Shown here: one piece after another, positions 3,156 to 15,702 of the stretch | Position numbering within the stretch: position 1 is the first letter of the stretch | Layout of the letters: each line of letters opens with the position of its first letter | Origin: Firmicutes bacterium UBA1426 | GTDB lineage: Bacteria > Bacillota > Clostridia > Peptostreptococcales > Anaerovoracaceae | Assembly: GCA_002329675.1 (NCBI GenBank) | Contig: DCUA01000115.1 | Span: 1-15,702, forward strand | Length of the DNA stretch: 15,702 nt | Direction: 5' to 3' | Made by a program: the position numbers and the translations under genes | The notes under the pieces: generated by a model | Told to the model about the DNA's origin: nothing | Database searches by the model: none | The model's input: only the letters and a program-made list of their open reading frames with translations

Positions 3156-3806
3156 CTAACCCATCATTCCGTTTTCAAACCACTCTATTGCCCGATCATA
3201 ATCATCAGGAGTGTCGATTTCTCTCGTCCTCATATTAAACGCTGGAAGAGGAAGCACTTCATTTAATACATCGTATACATGACAGGATGTTCCTTTAAGC
3301 TTATCTGCCCTTATCTTCACTATTCCTGACCACTGATAATTGCCTGATTTCTTAGAGAGGTTCACGACAGAGCCGTCCTCAACTGCGGCCATCACGGGTT
3401 CAGCTGATGTGATCGGAGAGATACCCAGGCACTCATTCTTGCATGCAAGAAACGCAGTGAAATCTTCTGGATTTTCTAAAGTATCTCCATCAAGAGATAT
3501 TACATACTCTCGTACACCTACTAATGCTTTTCTGAGGCTATCCGCCACGCCGGTAGTTTCATAGTCATAGTTAAAGGCAAACATTATATCCTTACGGAAC
3601 TCAGTAACAACATGGATCAGTCTTTCTGCCTGGAAGCCAACAACTATACGTATATCATCGTATTCATGCAGATTCTCAAGCAAGCGGATAATCAGTGGCT
3701 TCCCACAAATATCAACTAATGCTTTTGTCGTCCCAATACCAAGACGTGTCCCCATACCTGCACAGCAGATAATTACGGTCGTATTCTTTGGGTCAAAGGC
3801 GTTCAT
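3156..3806 (-). CDS. LicC/IspD-like nucleotidyltransferase
   Basis: GT-A-type NTP transferase of the group that includes LicC (CTP:phosphocholine cytidylyltransferase) and sugar-phosphate nucleotidyltransferases. Nucleotide-binding residues are CCAGMGTRLG (14-23) followed by K28 in TTKALVDICGKPL; the metal-binding DGD is at 107-109. TPDDYDRA near the C terminus is common in this family. The ATG at 3806 is used because AAGGGGGT lies 4-5 bases upstream; the frame runs further but overlaps the HAD gene. The protein is 216 residues, close to LicC-like enzymes. With LicD in the same transcript, a role in making a CDP-alcohol or CDP-amino-alcohol donor is reasonable, but two unrelated nucleotidyltransferases occur in this module, so they probably activate different substrates. 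Which of them feeds LicD is undecided. Confidence 0.85.
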   Translation of the reverse strand: MNAFDPKNTTVIICCAGMGTRLGIGTTKALVDICGKPLIIRLLENLHEYDDIRIVVGFQAERLIHVVTEFRKDIMFAFNYDYETTGVADSLRKALVGVREYVISLDGDTLENPEDFTAFLACKNECLGISPITSAEPVMAAVEDGSVVNLSKKSGNYQWSGIVKIRADKLKGTSCHVYDVLNEVLPLPAFNMRTREIDTPDDYDRAIEWFENGMMG

Positions 3807-3816
3807 GGTTACCCCC

Positions 3817-4419
3817 TTATAAGAGCTTCCACAAGAAGTCAGTACAACGCTTATCGTCATAGAAAGCAAAATCGCTACTCCTCAAAAGCGATGGAGCAAT
3901 AGGGCGCACTCCGCCAAATCCGATGCCAATATCAGCCATTCTGACCATGCCTGAATCGTTATCTCCATCTCCTATTGCCACCAATGGCTGAACGAATTGT
4001 TTGACCATCAGTTCCTTGTCAACGACACTTATGACCTTGGATATTCTGTCGTTCACTACTTCAGCCTTTGAGCAGTATGTGTGGTTCTCCATCCCAAGCT
4101 TTTTCATCAAGCCGCTAATCCATACGTCAATATTGCCGGTCAAAACATAACAACGGTCTTTATTCTCACGTATGAATTCCGCTATCGATTCATTCAACGG
4201 TATATCAGCAACAATATCATTGACTTCTCGTACAGATATATCAGACAAGATTTTCACGCGCCGAAGAAAACTCGTTTTAAACGGAATCTCCCCGCGCATT
4301 GTTGCCTCTGTCAGTTGACGCATCTCTTCTAACTTATTGATCTTTTGTGCTATCTCCGGTAAAACTTCTTTTCGGGTAATGGTTGAATCCATATCGAAAA
4401 GAAAAATATAATCTGACAT
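3817..4419 (-). CDS. HAD-superfamily phosphatase, SerB-like
   Basis: Haloacid dehalogenase-type hydrolase of 200 residues. All four HAD motifs are visible: DMDST (9-13, nucleophile D9 and acid D11), TGN (94-96) as motif II, K140 as motif III, and GDGDND (150-155) as motif IV. The DMDST start and the insert of about 60 residues after motif I resemble phosphoserine phosphatase-like enzymes, which act on small phosphate esters. The ATG at 4419 is chosen because GAGGG sits 5 bases upstream. It lies 13 bases after licD and 10 bases before the LicC-like gene, clearly inside the operon. The role may be to release an alcohol or hydroxy acid from its phosphate in the decoration pathway; the substrate is not predictable. 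Neighbours argue against ordinary serine biosynthesis. Confidence 0.85.
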   Translation of the reverse strand: MSDYIFLFDMDSTITRKEVLPEIAQKINKLEEMRQLTEATMRGEIPFKTSFLRRVKILSDISVREVNDIVADIPLNESIAEFIRENKDRCYVLTGNIDVWISGLMKKLGMENHTYCSKAEVVNDRISKVISVVDKELMVKQFVQPLVAIGDGDNDSGMVRMADIGIGFGGVRPIAPSLLRSSDFAFYDDKRCTDFLWKLL

Positions 4420-4432
4420 ATTTACCCTCGAC

Positions 4433-5236
4433 TTAATCAAGATAGTAAGCCTTAAATCTGTGATGGGATACTTGTTTTTCAATAGGCGGAAGCTTCATAT
4501 AATCTCCATAAAAAGATCTTAGCCATTCATCATAACCAGCAGGTACCCGATACTTCCTTCCTTCAAACTCTGCTACAGTAAAGGACTGAAACACATTTTT
4601 GGAACATACCTGCCGGGTTTCTGAAGTAAAGTTCCCCACTCTATTCGTTGACACATTCATATACTTTTTTGAATTCTGAATTATCTTGCCAATGAAATAG
4701 CTGTTGGGAATTACAGCAAGACAGTAATGCAATAGTATTTTTAGGCATTTCGTTACGGACGTTTTCTCAGGTAAATGTTTTGTTGTTTTAATCAAATATA
4801 ATTTTTTATATAAGTCTCTTCTTTCAAATTGTTTTTGCAACTCAGTGTCATCATCCGGAGCATTATCATAAACAAAAACATCAATATTCACTCCCGTCTT
4901 AAAACCATTTTCATCTGGTTCATACAGAACTGTTCTTGTATCTAATATCTTGGCGAATGCTACATGAAAAGCCTTGTCTATTTCTAGACAAGATAATTTA
5001 TATCTGCTATTCAGATTTTTTTTCGGGAAAACTGATATGAATCTATCATAATCATCCCTCAGCATACCAATATCAATGTCATCATCCCAGGGAATATATC
5101 CCTTATGTCTAATTGCACCCAGAAGTGTCCCACAATCAATCCAATAATGAATACTGTTATCCTCACAAAACTGAGCAACAAAGTCTAGAATGTCAAGTTG
5201 CGCTGCTTTAAGCTCATCTAATGTCATTTTTTTCAT
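4433..5236 (-). CDS. LicD-family phosphotransferase
   Basis: Member of the LicD family, which transfers phosphocholine or similar phospho-groups (phosphoethanolamine, phosphoribitol in relatives) from a CDP donor onto surface glycans at the cytoplasmic side. The signature is clear: YWIDCGTLLGAIRHKG (31-46) followed by YIPWDDDIDIGM (48-59), with the acidic cluster DDDID at 51-55 expected to bind metal. The protein has 267 residues. Its ATG (5234-5236) overlaps the capG stop in an ATGA arrangement, and GGAG lies 9 bases upstream, so the start is secure. It is noticeably A+T-richer than capG next to it. With two nucleotidyltransferases downstream it probably adds a phosphate-linked substituent to the FucNAc-containing repeat unit. 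The substituent is unknown. Confidence 0.9.
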   Translation of the reverse strand: MKKMTLDELKAAQLDILDFVAQFCEDNSIHYWIDCGTLLGAIRHKGYIPWDDDIDIGMLRDDYDRFISVFPKKNLNSRYKLSCLEIDKAFHVAFAKILDTRTVLYEPDENGFKTGVNIDVFVYDNAPDDDTELQKQFERRDLYKKLYLIKTTKHLPEKTSVTKCLKILLHYCLAVIPNSYFIGKIIQNSKKYMNVSTNRVGNFTSETRQVCSKNVFQSFTVAEFEGRKYRVPAGYDEWLRSFYGDYMKLPPIEKQVSHHRFKAYYLD

Positions 5237-11591: not shown

Positions 11592-11633
11592 CCTCAACCT
11601 ACTCTTCTTTCTCCAAGGAGAATCAACTGCTAT

Positions 11634-12152
11634 TTATACTGTCGCGTAAATCTCTAAATAATCTGTATAGCGGCTGTTCATATCAAATATTTTCGCTCTA
11701 GTCATGCAGGCCTCTGATGAAAACGGGTGGTCTTCACAAATGCGCATTATCTCTGCTTTTAATGCAGACAAATCATCACAATCAATAGTGATCCCACACG
11801 TTTCATCAATGATCTCGGGGCTTCCGCCCGTTCTAAAAGTCACAACCGGAGTGCCACAAGCAAGTGATTCAATATTAGTAGTGGGAAAATTATCCTCTCG
11901 AGTTGGATTCACAAATACATCTGCGGCTGTATAAATTTCAGCCAGTTCCTTCTGGTTATGCGTCCTGTGGATTGAAATAATGTTTTCCGGTAGTCTCCTA
12001 TCAATTTCCTCATTTGTGCCAACAAGAATAATTTGATATTCTTCCGGCAGGTCTCTAGCTAGCCATTCAAAAACGTCAAGGCCTTTACGTTTTTCCCAAC
12101 TAAAAGCAACACCTAAAACCATATATTTCTTTTCACATTCATGTTTTTTCAT
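11634..12152 (-). CDS. Stand-alone GT4 C-terminal (donor-binding) domain, paralogue of the upstream enzyme's C domain
   Basis: The 172-residue product is only the C-terminal half of a GT-B, family 4 glycosyltransferase. It begins about ten residues before the first C-domain strand (YMVLGVAFSWEKRKGLDVF, 10-28) and continues through LVGTNEE, AEIYTAADVFVNPTRED and NIESLACGTPVVTFRTGG to a natural end. No N-terminal acceptor domain precedes it. It is strongly similar to residues 235-397 of the enzyme encoded just upstream, but its active-site loop reads DNFPTTNIE where the neighbour has EVLGMTNIE, so donor preference may differ. The ATG at 12152 overlaps the upstream gene by 14 bases, with GAGGAG 13 bases before it; the ATG at 12173 lacks a site. 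It could be a remnant, or the partner of a separate N domain, as in Alg13/Alg14-type split enzymes. Confidence 0.82.
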   Translation of the reverse strand: MKKHECEKKYMVLGVAFSWEKRKGLDVFEWLARDLPEEYQIILVGTNEEIDRRLPENIISIHRTHNQKELAEIYTAADVFVNPTREDNFPTTNIESLACGTPVVTFRTGGSPEIIDETCGITIDCDDLSALKAEIMRICEDHPFSSEACMTRAKIFDMNSRYTDYLEIYATV

Positions 12153-13332
12153 ATAGTTTAAGGTACTCCTCATATTTTAAAGTTGCAGCAAAAACATGGG
12201 CTCTGTCAATGCAGGATGCTTCATGAAAAGGTTTCTTCTCGCAGATATACTTGACTGCATCTAACATGGCGTCCCGATTATTGTATGGAACAATTATTCC
12301 GCATTCCTCAGTCACAATCTCTGGACATCCACCAGTTCGAAACGTTACTACAGGAGTGCCACATGCAAGTGACTCTATATTCGTCATACCTAATACTTCT
12401 TCTCTAGTCGGATTAACAAAAACATCAACTGCGGTATAAATCTCTGCCAATTCGTGCTGATCATTAGTTTTATGTATGGAGATGATTTTTCTAGGTAACT
12501 CCCTATCTGTAGTGTCATTCGTCCCCACTAGTACAATTTGATAGTCTTCTGGAAGATTCTCAGAAAGCCAAACAAATACGTCAAGTCCCTTTGCCTTTCC
12601 CCAAGTGAAAGCAACACCCAGTATGAGTTTTACCCCCCCCCTAATACCATAGCGGGTTCTGAAGTCGCTGTCTGTCGGATGGAAAACTGCCAGGTCAATT
12701 CCGTTATTGATGACTTTAATTGGATATTCTCCGAGAAAAGATTCTCTGACAAGTCCTGCAAGCCATTCTGAAGGCGTTACAATAGTTAGACGATTGCCCA
12801 ATGAAGTCAGCCACTTTTTTTTGTCTTCAAAGCATTTCTTACTCCTGTCAAAAAAATAGCTCTTGGGATACACTCCCCACTGTGGACAACCTCCACATCC
12901 TGTCTTCCATTTTTCACACTGTACAAAGGTAAACCAAGCGCACTTTCCTGTAAACCACCAGCAATCATGCATCGTTATGATGATTTTTGCCCGTGTATTC
13001 CTCAAATACTTAAAGAGAATCGGAAGACACAGGTAGTTTCCATGTAGATTATGCAGATGTATTATGTCAGGATTTTCTTCCTTTAGTTTTCTAATCAACT
13101 GGACGGTCCTGAGTGCAGAAAAATATCCCTGCTTTCCTGTGATCTTGGAAAGCTGATCATGTATATGCGATTCGACCCAATTGCTCAGGCATATCGAATT
13201 CTCATCATCATAATGGCCAATTCCGTATGCGAAAAAATACTCATTGCCAGATTCTTTCAATACAGAGCATAAAGATCTTGCAATTTTACCTGTACTTCCA
13301 TTACAGGATGAATTAATTAGGAATACTTTCAT
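12139..13332 (-). CDS. GT4-family glycosyltransferase with a 9-G tract at the domain hinge
   Basis: Full-length GT-B enzyme, 397 residues. The N domain (1-228) starts MKVFLINSSCNGSTGKIA and carries a cysteine-rich segment typical of one GT4 subgroup (C124, C131, C139, C146, C149 around HDCWWFTGKC and TGCGGCP), then TPSEWLAG and NNGIDLAVFHPTD. The C domain (about 234-397) has LILGVAFTWGKAKGLDV, the EX7E motif E312-E320, and SLACGTPVVTFRTGG. Between them is YGIRGGV, encoded through a run of nine G (12633-12641). One G fewer gives an immediate TAA after the tract; one more gives a TGA about 18 codons later. The ATG at 13332 has GAGGGG 10 bases upstream and overlaps the polymerase gene by 20 bases. 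The donor sugar is unknown. Confidence 0.92.
   Translation of the reverse strand: MKVFLINSSCNGSTGKIARSLCSVLKESGNEYFFAYGIGHYDDENSICLSNWVESHIHDQLSKITGKQGYFSALRTVQLIRKLKEENPDIIHLHNLHGNYLCLPILFKYLRNTRAKIIITMHDCWWFTGKCAWFTFVQCEKWKTGCGGCPQWGVYPKSYFFDRSKKCFEDKKKWLTSLGNRLTIVTPSEWLAGLVRESFLGEYPIKVINNGIDLAVFHPTDSDFRTRYGIRGGVKLILGVAFTWGKAKGLDVFVWLSENLPEDYQIVLVGTNDTTDRELPRKIISIHKTNDQHELAEIYTAVDVFVNPTREEVLGMTNIESLACGTPVVTFRTGGCPEIVTEECGIIVPYNNRDAMLDAVKYICEKKPFHEASCIDRAHVFAATLKYEEYLKLYEKT
12633..12641 (-). repeat. Homopolymeric tract of nine G (coding strand) in the GT4 hinge
   Basis: Nine consecutive C on the plus strand, in frame as AGG GGG GGG GTA. A run this long is prone to slipped-strand mispairing in bacteria. 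Deletion of one G makes the next codon TAA, ending the protein exactly between its two domains. Confidence 0.85.
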
Positions 13333-14551
13333 ATTCTTCGATCCCCTCATTTGTTGTGTCCGTCTCTTGGTTGACATTTCCTTTAAGCATTAAACAAGGT
13401 GTCAGGAAGAACACTACAGAAATTGAATTCATATCATTAAACGTGTTAAACAATGTCAGGAATAATGTAAGTATCTCCAACATATTGATATATTGTTTAT
13501 GGATATATCTCCTCATGACGGAAAAAGCAGAATGTAATAATCCTACATAGCTAATGCCTCCGATCCCCATGTAAGCAAGCTGCACCAATATTTGCGAATC
13601 TATACCCGCTTCGCTGGATCCAAATAGAGGATGAGCTAGGAATGATGTCCACGACTTATAGAAATAATTAAATCTTGAAAGCTGCAATATGTTGGATGCA
13701 TCTAAAGCACTGGAAATTTTCCCGATTTTCTCTGTAAAGATATCAACCCCAAATGCATCTCCGATTATATAAATCAGATTCATAAAGTACTGATAGAACG
13801 CCAAAACAAAGATCAATATAATAAAAAGTGCTAACATGCCTGAGCTGCTCTTTTCCGTTCTCGCGTAGAAGAACAGCAATAGGGCTGACAGCAAAAGCAT
13901 AATAATAGCTGTAGTAAATCCAGCTTTTATGATCGTAATGCCGAATATAACTATTGGTACAATGTACAGGATACGACGCTGACCAAGCTTCTCTCTCCGA
14001 AACAGCTTGCAAAAAAGAGCGATACTAATGAACACAAGCCCATAAATAAATCCGTAACCACCGCATCCTATCGAATGAAGAAAAGAAGTATCCATTGCCA
14101 TAGAAGTATTTCCGTACATAGCACGAGATGCCAATGGGTACATATTTATTGCTCTCATGGTCGCAAATGACCAGAACGCCATGAGTAAAATATGAATTTT
14201 TAAGTGTGCTTCTCTCTCTCCATCTTCAAAGTTCAAGGCAACTATTTCAAAGCACAAAGTCCAGAAAACAATGTGGAGGTAACCCGCAAAGAACGTTACC
14301 CATTGGTATGATCCACCATGTAAATATAGCAGAATAGAAAACAATAAAACAATAAAAAACCACTTCAGAAGCGGAGAATGTAAGAAATCTGATCCTATTA
14401 AAAGTCCAGACTGTAAAGCCCAAAGAAACACTATGACATACGTGAAGGCAGCAAGATAAAAACTGTATTGCAACCGAATAAATGTACACGTGCTATACAC
14501 AAACAGGGCTGATATTATTAATAGAATAAGACTTGAGACTCGAACTTTCAT
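13313..14551 (-). CDS. Wzy-like repeat-unit polymerase
   Basis: Polytopic membrane protein of 412 residues with about ten to eleven hydrophobic helices, little sequence similarity to a named protein, and a position among glycosyltransferases and a flippase. Features of O-antigen polymerase/ligase-like proteins are the periplasmic-side segment KSWTSFLAHPLFGSSEAG (the nPlfGxG-like pattern) followed by SQILVQLAYMGIGG. It is expected to join flipped repeat units at the outer face of the membrane. The ATG at 14551 has GGAG about 9 bases upstream; the 3' end overlaps the next glycosyltransferase start. Linkage specificity is not predictable. A ligase is the main alternative, less likely in a Gram-positive cluster. 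Confidence 0.85.
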   Translation of the reverse strand: MKVRVSSLILLIISALFVYSTCTFIRLQYSFYLAAFTYVIVFLWALQSGLLIGSDFLHSPLLKWFFIVLLFSILLYLHGGSYQWVTFFAGYLHIVFWTLCFEIVALNFEDGEREAHLKIHILLMAFWSFATMRAINMYPLASRAMYGNTSMAMDTSFLHSIGCGGYGFIYGLVFISIALFCKLFRREKLGQRRILYIVPIVIFGITIIKAGFTTAIIMLLLSALLLFFYARTEKSSSGMLALFIILIFVLAFYQYFMNLIYIIGDAFGVDIFTEKIGKISSALDASNILQLSRFNYFYKSWTSFLAHPLFGSSEAGIDSQILVQLAYMGIGGISYVGLLHSAFSVMRRYIHKQYINMLEILTLFLTLFNTFNDMNSISVVFFLTPCLMLKGNVNQETDTTNEGIEEYESIPN

Positions 14552-14572
14552 ATAACCGCTCCGTTAGCTTTA

Positions 14573-15112
14573 TTATGAGATCGCATGAAATGACGCCCTG
14601 ATTTTTCTGGCATACTCTATATTGGACATCTTTTCGGCAAAGGCTCTGCCGCTTACAGTCATCCGGTCTCGGTTCTTTTGTATCGTTTCGATTGCGCGGG
14701 CAGCATCCTCAACATCATCTTCTTTGAAACACGCTCCGTCTCCGCTGACACGAATAAACTCTTCGGCACCGGCCACATTACATGCTGCCACTGGGACTCC
14801 CGCTGCCGCAGCCTCCAGACCAGCCAATGGAAAACCTTCAAACGCCGACGGAATCATCAGCACATCTATCATCTTGAGAAGATCCGGAATATCGTTACGG
14901 CGTCCAAGGAAAGTGACTTGCCCTTTTAATCCATATTCTTCAACCTTGCGCTCCAAGTAAGCCATGTAATCCGGCTCTCGACATTCTCCGGCAAAAACGC
15001 CTATTGCGTCATAACCTTTTTCTCGAAGAGCATTAATGAGTCTAAGCGTAAACCATTGTTTCTTCGACTCCTGTATAAGAGCAACATGTCCGATTAAAAG
15101 CGTTTTTGACAT
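14573..15112 (-). CDS. Second stand-alone GT4 C-terminal domain
   Basis: The 179-residue protein starts directly at the first strand of a GT-B C domain (TLLIGHVALIQESKKQW, 4-20) and continues with GQVTFLGRRNDIPDLL, IDVLMIPSAFEGFPLAGLEA (EX7E at E92-E100) and AAGVPVAACNVAGAEEF. There is no N-terminal domain: the frame is closed by a TGA about 21 bases upstream of the ATG. The start is convincing, with GGGAGG 5 bases before the ATG. The EX7E motif and donor-binding half are intact, so it is not an obviously decayed fragment. It follows another GT4 gene by 32 bases, the same order as the pair at 11634-13332, and is only moderately similar to that neighbour's C domain. It may be half of a split enzyme or inactive alone. 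Confidence 0.82.
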   Translation of the reverse strand: MSKTLLIGHVALIQESKKQWFTLRLINALREKGYDAIGVFAGECREPDYMAYLERKVEEYGLKGQVTFLGRRNDIPDLLKMIDVLMIPSAFEGFPLAGLEAAAAGVPVAACNVAGAEEFIRVSGDGACFKEDDVEDAARAIETIQKNRDRMTVSGRAFAEKMSNIEYARKIRASFHAIS

Positions 15113-15117
15113 CTGAT

Positions 15118-15123
15118 CCTCCC
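15118..15123 (-). promoter_or_regulatory. Ribosome binding site of the orphan GT4 C-domain gene
   Basis: GGGAGG, 5 bases before the ATG at 15112. It matters because it shows that this half-enzyme has its own translation start rather than being a 3' fragment of the gene before it. Confidence 0.7.
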
Positions 15124-15144
15124 GTTTATCAAGGGCAGATCATT

Positions 15145-15702
15145 TCATGTCATAAACATTCCATGCACACCCTTGCTGTAGTTTTCGTAGCTTTGCCGTA
15201 GGCAAAATCTATACCCGGTCTCCAGACTGCTTTCTCCTTGCTTCATGGCCCTGAGAACAGCATCAGCAACTTCTGTTGCTGCCCCGCCTGCTGGAAACAG
15301 TTCTCCGCATCCCGCGGATATCAGCACTTCTTTCGAACCTCCCTGATCCATGCCAACAACATGGGTTCTCGCTGACATCGCCTCAAGGACAGTCAGGGGC
15401 ATCCCCTCTGACGATGGAACAACAACACAATCTGTTGCTGCCAAAATGTCTCCGATATCACGACGGAATCCCGGAGCATAGATATCATTCTTCATTCCGT
15501 TATCCTGGATGAACTTATCGATGCTCTTCTTGTAGTCCCGGTCTGCATCAGTAACTACATCACCGATCATAAGGCCGATTACAGCCGTACCGCGTTTTTT
15601 GATTTCATGTACTGTCCTGACAAACAAATCCTGGCATTTATTCTTCGTGATCGCGCCTATATGAGTGAGGATCAGTACCCCCCCCCCGCACGATTTTCCG
15701 GC
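15145..15702 (-). CDS. GT4-family glycosyltransferase, 5' part outside the window, with a 10-G tract at the domain hinge
   Basis: Only the C-terminal half is in the window. The frame is open from the stop at 15145 to the window edge, so the gene continues beyond 15702 and the TTG at 15627 is not the real start. Readable features are AGKSCGGGVLILTHIGAITK at the hinge and first C-domain strand, IGLMIGD, YAPGFRRDIGDILAATDCVVVPSS, the EX7E motif EGMPLTVLEA, and VVGMDQGGSKEV. The triple glycine is encoded by ten consecutive G (15678-15687), at the hinge just before the VLILTH strand, the same place as the 9-G tract in the other GT4 gene. It presumably transfers a sugar to the lipid-linked intermediate in the cytoplasm; specificity is unknown. 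Confidence 0.85.
   Translation of the reverse strand, partial: AGKSCGGGVLILTHIGAITKNKCQDLFVRTVHEIKKRGTAVIGLMIGDVVTDADRDYKKSIDKFIQDNGMKNDIYAPGFRRDIGDILAATDCVVVPSSEGMPLTVLEAMSARTHVVGMDQGGSKEVLISAGCGELFPAGGAATEVADAVLRAMKQGESSLETGYRFCLRQSYENYSKGVHGMFMT
15678..15687 (-). repeat. Homopolymeric tract of ten G (coding strand) in the GT4 hinge
   Basis: Ten consecutive C on the plus strand, read as TGC GGG GGG GGG GTA CTG. Loss of one G gives GGG TAC TGA, so translation would end one residue after the tract; gain of one leads to TAA about 14 codons later. Like the tract at 12633-12641 it is followed by TA on the coding strand. Confidence 0.85.

Follow-up and report, generated by a model that had tools for sequence, protein, structure and literature searches.

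We identified two lone GT4 C-terminal domains, O1 and O2, in a bacterial polysaccharide cluster, each directly behind a GT4 coding region that bears a long G tract. What is new here is that, as judged by sequence identity, these orphans match the C domains of one-piece relatives better than do the domains that are now fused behind the tracts. At one of the two sites the tract coincides with the hinge of a complete two-domain enzyme (GT4-1), and we tentatively favor the view, with a confidence somewhat short of even, that slippage in this tract switches the acceptor domain (N1) between a fused, probably non-native donor domain (C1) and the probably native, separately encoded and adjacent O1.

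The window, that is, the whole 15,702-nucleotide stretch of DNA analyzed, is an entire contig (C80) of a 2.23 Mb assembly that comprises 236 contigs and is 86% complete. Pfam profile searches and a list of reading frames placed the polysaccharide cluster on the minus strand, in the order G10 tract and GT4 C domain (C2), O2, a membrane protein, GT4-1 with its G9 tract and O1, followed by a flippase-like protein (Polysacc_synt), a GT2 enzyme and nucleotide-sugar genes (Table 1). By its position and look, we take the membrane protein to be Wzy-like. Runs of seven Gs were in excess in the window (seven overlapping matches versus a shuffle mean of 0.72; seven or more in 0 of 200 shuffles). A Mutator-type transposase (PF00872) was detected at positions 72-1277, at the contig end opposite the G10 tract.

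Table 1. Positions of the features discussed, in the window unless another contig is given
Feature	Position	Strand	Basis or remark
C2, GT4 C domain behind the second tract	15145..15702	minus	PF13692/PF00534; in frame as assembled
G10 tract, directly before C2	15678..15687	minus	sequence
O2, lone GT4 C domain	14573..15112	minus	counterpart of the C domain in the one-piece L068 GT4 3602-4762
Membrane protein between the two GT4 units	13313..14551	minus	syntenic with L068:4782-6020; no Pfam match
GT4-1, two-domain GT4 glycosyltransferase	12139..13332	minus	397 aa, in frame as assembled; PF13439 (N) and PF13692/PF00534 (C)
N1, acceptor (N) domain of GT4-1	12642..13332	minus	67-79% identity to P0002-P0007
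G9 tract, GT4-1 hinge	12633..12641	minus	sequence and AlphaFold2 model
C1, fused donor (C) domain of GT4-1	12139..12632	minus	probably not the native one
O1, lone GT4 C domain	11634..12152	minus	C-domain families only (Pfam); probably N1's native donor domain
Pyruvyl transferase tract, same genome	G000:C99:4676-4683		
FrhB-like poly-C tract, same genome	G000:C99:18271-18278		

GT4-1 consists of N- and C-terminal Rossmann domains that both match GT4 families, as is characteristic of GT4 enzymes with the GT-B fold. Its AlphaFold2 model (mean pLDDT 91.7, pTM 0.88) gave GT4/GT-B enzymes, e.g., BshA, as the best PDB matches. In this predicted structure, residues 231-233 encoded by the G9 tract lie between a helix (224-227) and the strand that opens the C domain (235-240), and in the model the tract is thus the coding sequence of the linker between the two Rossmann domains; it starts 14 nt ahead of the C-domain match. 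As in contingency genes, the homopolymer is located within the coding frame and changes in its length would truncate the product: with eight Gs, translation would stop right after RGG (233 aa), and with ten Gs after 17 more residues. The start codon (ATG) of O1 overlaps the stop codon of GT4-1 and is preceded by GAGGAG at a distance of 13 nt. Structure prediction for the 172-aa O1 gave a complete donor domain (pLDDT 85.2) whose fold matches glycogen synthase C domains, BshA and 2f9f. Confidence in this model was lower at the beginning of the chain and for its last helices; in GT-B enzymes, the last helices of the C domain pack against the N domain.

At the second site, the G10 tract starts 12 nt ahead of the C-domain match, and a GGGAGG motif lies 5 nt upstream of the O2 start codon (ATG). 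Loss of one G would lead to GGGY and then a stop, and gain of one to 18 residues before a stop. Because only 15 nt (encoding AGKSC) remain between the G10 tract and the contig end, the N domain of this enzyme (N2) is outside the window. We infer that the second enzyme is likewise a GT4 with a tract at its hinge, the N domain of which lies beyond the contig end, and that the design of the first site is probably repeated here. A search with PF13439 (13 matches) did not find N2 in the 86%-complete assembly. The possibility that N2 is located at another contig end was examined with the four PF13439 matches lacking a paired PF00534, none of which was N2; we take them to be a MurG-like protein with a masked stretch (contig C46), an epimerase-like protein (C19), a full glycosyltransferase-like frame (C66) and a formyltransferase-like protein (C186). 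The window ends 15 bases past the G10 tract, and a contig from another genome (L113, G068:C76) ends approximately 20 bases after a G tract. Such contig ends beside G tracts are perhaps assembly breaks at variable tracts.

A preliminary description of this DNA had proposed hinge G tracts in two GT4 genes, truncation at or one codon past the domain junction upon loss of one G, and a gene encoding only a C domain directly after each GT4. The first proposal holds for GT4-1, for which both the domain matches and the model place the tract at the hinge, and at the second site it can be followed only for the C-domain half. The predicted truncation was found at both sites (RGG and GGGY, each followed by a stop), and both orphans matched C-domain families only. 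O1 and O2 are therefore free-standing C-domain genes of the kind present in split GT-B enzymes, of which PssD/PssE are one pair.

We next consider which C domain is native to N1. The single genome-contig relative found was JAFYIZ010000033.1 (hereafter L068), from isolate RGIG7134 of water buffalo abomasum. Its genes, labeled by likeness to those of the window, follow the order GT4, Wzy-like, GT4, GT2, a further transferase and a flippase-like protein. Both of its GT4 enzymes are one-piece proteins without a tract and without an orphan. The second of them, which is P0002, is 69% identical to GT4-1. The C domains of L068 were 65% and 64% identical to O1 and O2 (the latter value computed over 173 residues), versus 58% and 28% to the fused domains C1 and C2. 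A similar relationship was observed for P0002-P0007, which ranked next to the window's own protein (P0001) as closest homologues among the database matches listed: their C domains were 56.6-70.6% identical to O1 versus 46.5-58.1% to C1, and O1 was closer in all six cases.

Phylogenetic analyses pointed in the same direction. In a 122-row tree of C domains, O1 was placed inside a clade of exactly these six homologues (100/99) and C1 was outside. For tree tests, P0008a/b were dropped and near-identical rows were thinned, which resulted in sets of 93 and 49 rows; in the 49-row tree, P0006 was the nearest neighbor of O1. In the direct comparison based on the 49 rows, O1 as the native domain outscored C1 by 38 lnL (AU p 0.079, RELL 0.021). 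With this AU value, which is not significant at 5%, the alternative of a native C1 is not formally rejected. Other topologies gave AU p values of 0.325 (C1 and O1 both in the native clade, 49 rows), 0.157 (C1, O1 and the six homologues held together) and 0.168 (C1 with the six homologues without O1; 0.334 in the 93-row set). The free search of the 93-row set was imperfect, as a tree holding O1 with the six homologues scored 47 lnL higher.

Given that O1 was closer in six of six cases, that its L068 counterpart is fused to an N domain and that it is predicted to have a full fold, O1 is likely the native donor domain of N1, which is favored but not proven by identities and tree. This indirectly strengthens the suggestion of the preliminary description that a free N domain could pair with the orphan C domain. 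Both origins can be envisaged for C1, which may be either a captured domain or an old, diverged copy. C1 and O1 share 59% protein identity and 60.7% DNA identity, and identity between C2 and O2 is 26%. Gene conversion between C1 and O1 was considered and discarded (longest run P 0.69; penalized scores P 0.11-0.44), the longest exact match being 11 bases.

G tracts in the same genome were analyzed for their gene context. Thirteen distinct tracts of at least eight Gs were identified (18 overlapping matches), nine of which were located on the eight contigs with PF00534 matches, which together make up 9.0% of all bases (binomial P 1.9e-7); when the window contig is excluded, GT4-bearing contigs carry 7 of 11 tracts (P 6.7e-6). 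This clustering is the same as in phase-variable surface loci. In the assembly, the coding sequence of a polysaccharide pyruvyl transferase is broken into two frames by its G8 tract, and a poly-C tract early in an FrhB-like gene seems to coincide with a frame change. Other tract genes encode two hexapeptide-type proteins and a TupA-like ATP-grasp protein. Tracts were also present in the final codons of a CDP-glycerol transferase fused to a cytidylyltransferase and of another GT4, and a G7 run was found at the start of an acyltransferase-3 frame.

Occurrence of the arrangement itself was limited. Additional GT4 genes with a hinge tract and an orphan, whose existence the preliminary description had left to further searches, were not found: only 2 of 99 occurrences of tracts of eight or more Gs in 82 scanned sources (some overlapping) were at a GT4 hinge, and both were those of the window. 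Relatives of GT4-1 (E value of 1e-30 or better) were detected in 3 of the 197 family genomes, one of which is its own. The same threshold yielded 30 O1-like domains, distributed over 28 of 391 class genomes. Of O2-like and C2-like domains, only the window's own were detected in the 391 and 351 class genomes searched, respectively. Among 117 readable hinges in 120 listed proteins, GG was present in two, the window's own P0001 and P0113; the cluster of P0001 lists one contig. A different architecture was seen in P0008 (604 aa, 57-member cluster), in which an N domain, a C domain and, after LGGV, a second C domain occur in one chain.

Tracts absent from close homologues and orphans lacking counterparts elsewhere had been named in the preliminary description as arguing against a switch, and both were partly observed. 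No run of seven Gs was present in the 13 kb of L068 and none in frame in the 31 GT4 relatives examined, and none of the 28 O1-like matches other than O1 and C1 was a C-only gene, one of the 28 being cut by a contig start. The joint absence of tract and orphan in these sequences fits a linked arrangement, which is known from one genome. Among the matches listed from the open-access literature, we found no report of a GT4 that is phase-variable and accompanied by a donor-domain orphan.

Because the G9 tract is at the joint and the probable original second half of N1 adjoins it, slips in the tract would likely change the second half with which N1 works. In the mechanism that we propose, a tract in frame would yield N1 fused to the newcomer C domain, and a tract out of frame would yield a free N1 that may pair in trans with the native one. 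This presupposes that tract length varies between cells, that truncated N1 is stable and associates with O1, and that C1 and O1 differ in donor sugar or efficiency. Surface polysaccharide would then toggle between two forms rather than simply lose a sugar. The wider proposal, that two glycosyltransferases of one operon are reversible exchangers which, without DNA rearrangement, select either a newcomer C domain in cis or the native one in trans and thereby toggle the sugar added, appears rather unlikely.

Donor-domain exchange is supported by the hinge tract with clean truncation at both sites, by the resemblance of the orphans, greater than that of the fused domains, to the C domains of one-piece relatives, and by the one-piece state of these relatives, which lack tract and orphan. 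The predicted ability of O1 to fold alone, concentration of tracts on GT4-bearing contigs and the pyruvyl transferase split at its tract also support it, and NgoAV and GT-B domain assembly (see below) are precedents. Against it are the occurrence in one genome, the absence of an N domain at the second site and the AU value obtained for C1 as the native domain.

Plain on/off phase variation is nearly as likely as donor-domain exchange, and is a serious contender although itself less than probable. Here, the tract would switch the fused N1-C1 enzyme, and the orphan would be a leftover of domain replacement that has no catalytic role. Phase-variable glycosyltransferases are usually described as on/off, and most surface genes with tracts are known to behave in this way; further tract genes of the same genome look on/off, and no other O1-like match was an orphan. 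However, O1 and O2 are intact frames with their own start signals, the start of O1 even overlapping the upstream stop, and O1 is as close to P0006 (70.6%) as is N1 (67.4%) and thus has no sign of decay. In addition, the tract is at the hinge, whereas on/off tracts are often near the start.

It is improbable that the locus is a static relic with a G run that does not function as a switch, its extra C domain deriving from domain replacement or from a tandem duplication in which the second N domain was lost. The tree tests do allow C1 to be a diverged native copy (both domains in the native clade, as above), in keeping with its protein identity to O1, but tracts cluster on GT4 contigs, the same layout is seen at two sites, and the low identity of C2 and O2 argues against a recent tandem duplication at the second site. 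Very improbable is a simultaneous supply of the fused enzyme and the free N domain in one cell through slipping of RNA polymerase or ribosomes at the G run: a -1 slip does meet a stop at once at both sites, but many tracts in family genomes are upstream of genes, where translation is irrelevant.

The nearest working analogue of donor-domain exchange is the type I restriction-modification system NgoAV of Neisseria gonorrhoeae (hsdS1/hsdS2). In this system a poly-G tract marks the joint between domains; truncated HsdS, the N part, serves as an active subunit, and when one G is lost it becomes fused to another domain, which changes specificity (PMC9577141, PMC6789123). By analogy, the GT4-1 tract is also at the joint of two domains that would bear specificity. 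However, the enzyme class is different, and the NgoAV fusion takes in the same downstream domain, which is otherwise inactive, whereas fused C1 and free-standing O1 are two distinct domains and activity of free N1 is putative. In Helicobacter canadensis, C-terminal phase variation was described for HCAN_0660/0661, where the state of a tract may determine whether one protein is made or two (PMC2823697). These are hypothetical proteins, with neither domain exchange nor a native-domain orphan.

Donor and acceptor domains on separate polypeptides make one enzyme in the split GT-B pair Alg13/Alg14 (PMC10937113). There, the split is fixed and the enzymes are MurG-related rather than GT4, with neither tract nor competing fused domain, whereas N1 would be free only in a slipped frame. 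The same source reports that N and C domains of UGT74B1 and UGT74C1, when severed at the linker and produced as individual proteins, can join to form an active enzyme. NB1//CC1 was the only active combination; native NB1//CB1 was inactive, and no purifiable dimers were obtained with NC1 (PMC10937113); activity of one of two purified pairs, with the native re-pairing inactive, counts against exchange at our locus, although these constructs are artificial and derive from plant GT1 enzymes.

Orphan modules of Rhs proteins are displaced C-terminal domains located downstream of genes that have come to carry a different one; switching occurs by recombination through a 522-bp near-identical block, and the orphans usually lack start signals (PMC3967940). 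In contrast, C1 and O1 share no more than 11 identical bases in a row, and O1 and O2 have start signals. A lone N-terminal domain of the polysaccharide glycosyltransferase EpsF of Streptococcus thermophilus was reported to influence chain length (PMC7023835); this differs from the window in being an artificial truncation, with no tract or orphan.

If donor-domain exchange is true, a hinge tract and an adjacent, likely native donor domain would provide a choice between two enzymes, and GT-B enzymes would have a natural route to trade donor domains with the old one kept usable. It predicts that the N domain together with the orphan represents the ancestral enzyme. Poly-G loci in glycan genes are also extended beyond the usual Gram-negative pathogens.

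G tracts are widespread in the family, 145 of 197 genomes matching the G8 pattern used at least once. We inspected 60 loci (73 tracts), which were hand-picked among the matches listed with preference for TA-flanked tracts, together with earlier matches, and are thus not a random sample; in these, many tracts were upstream of genes, ahead of TATA-like boxes. A role of the window tracts as internal promoters was discarded by a consensus scan of positions 11600-15702 (11 promoter-like sites versus 10.7 expected, none at the tracts). A G tract followed by TAC gave seven matches in the genome of the window versus none for the reversed control, and was dropped as a special site because TAC, TAT and TAA were all common after tracts in the family among the matches listed. 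In another family member, five tandem genes (L085, G180:C46:28000-43500) each have a G8-G9 tract and then TATACT approximately 40-65 bases upstream of a long frame; from this sequence context, these tracts are of promoter type. The long frames begin MKKKLVAFAVTAAM, and we presume from their look that they encode secreted proteins. Repeated G9-G12 tracts followed by TACTAAATCT or CACTACTTAA were observed in similar arrays of hypothetical genes at three places of one genome (L087, L088 and L089; G147:C56, C2 and C206).
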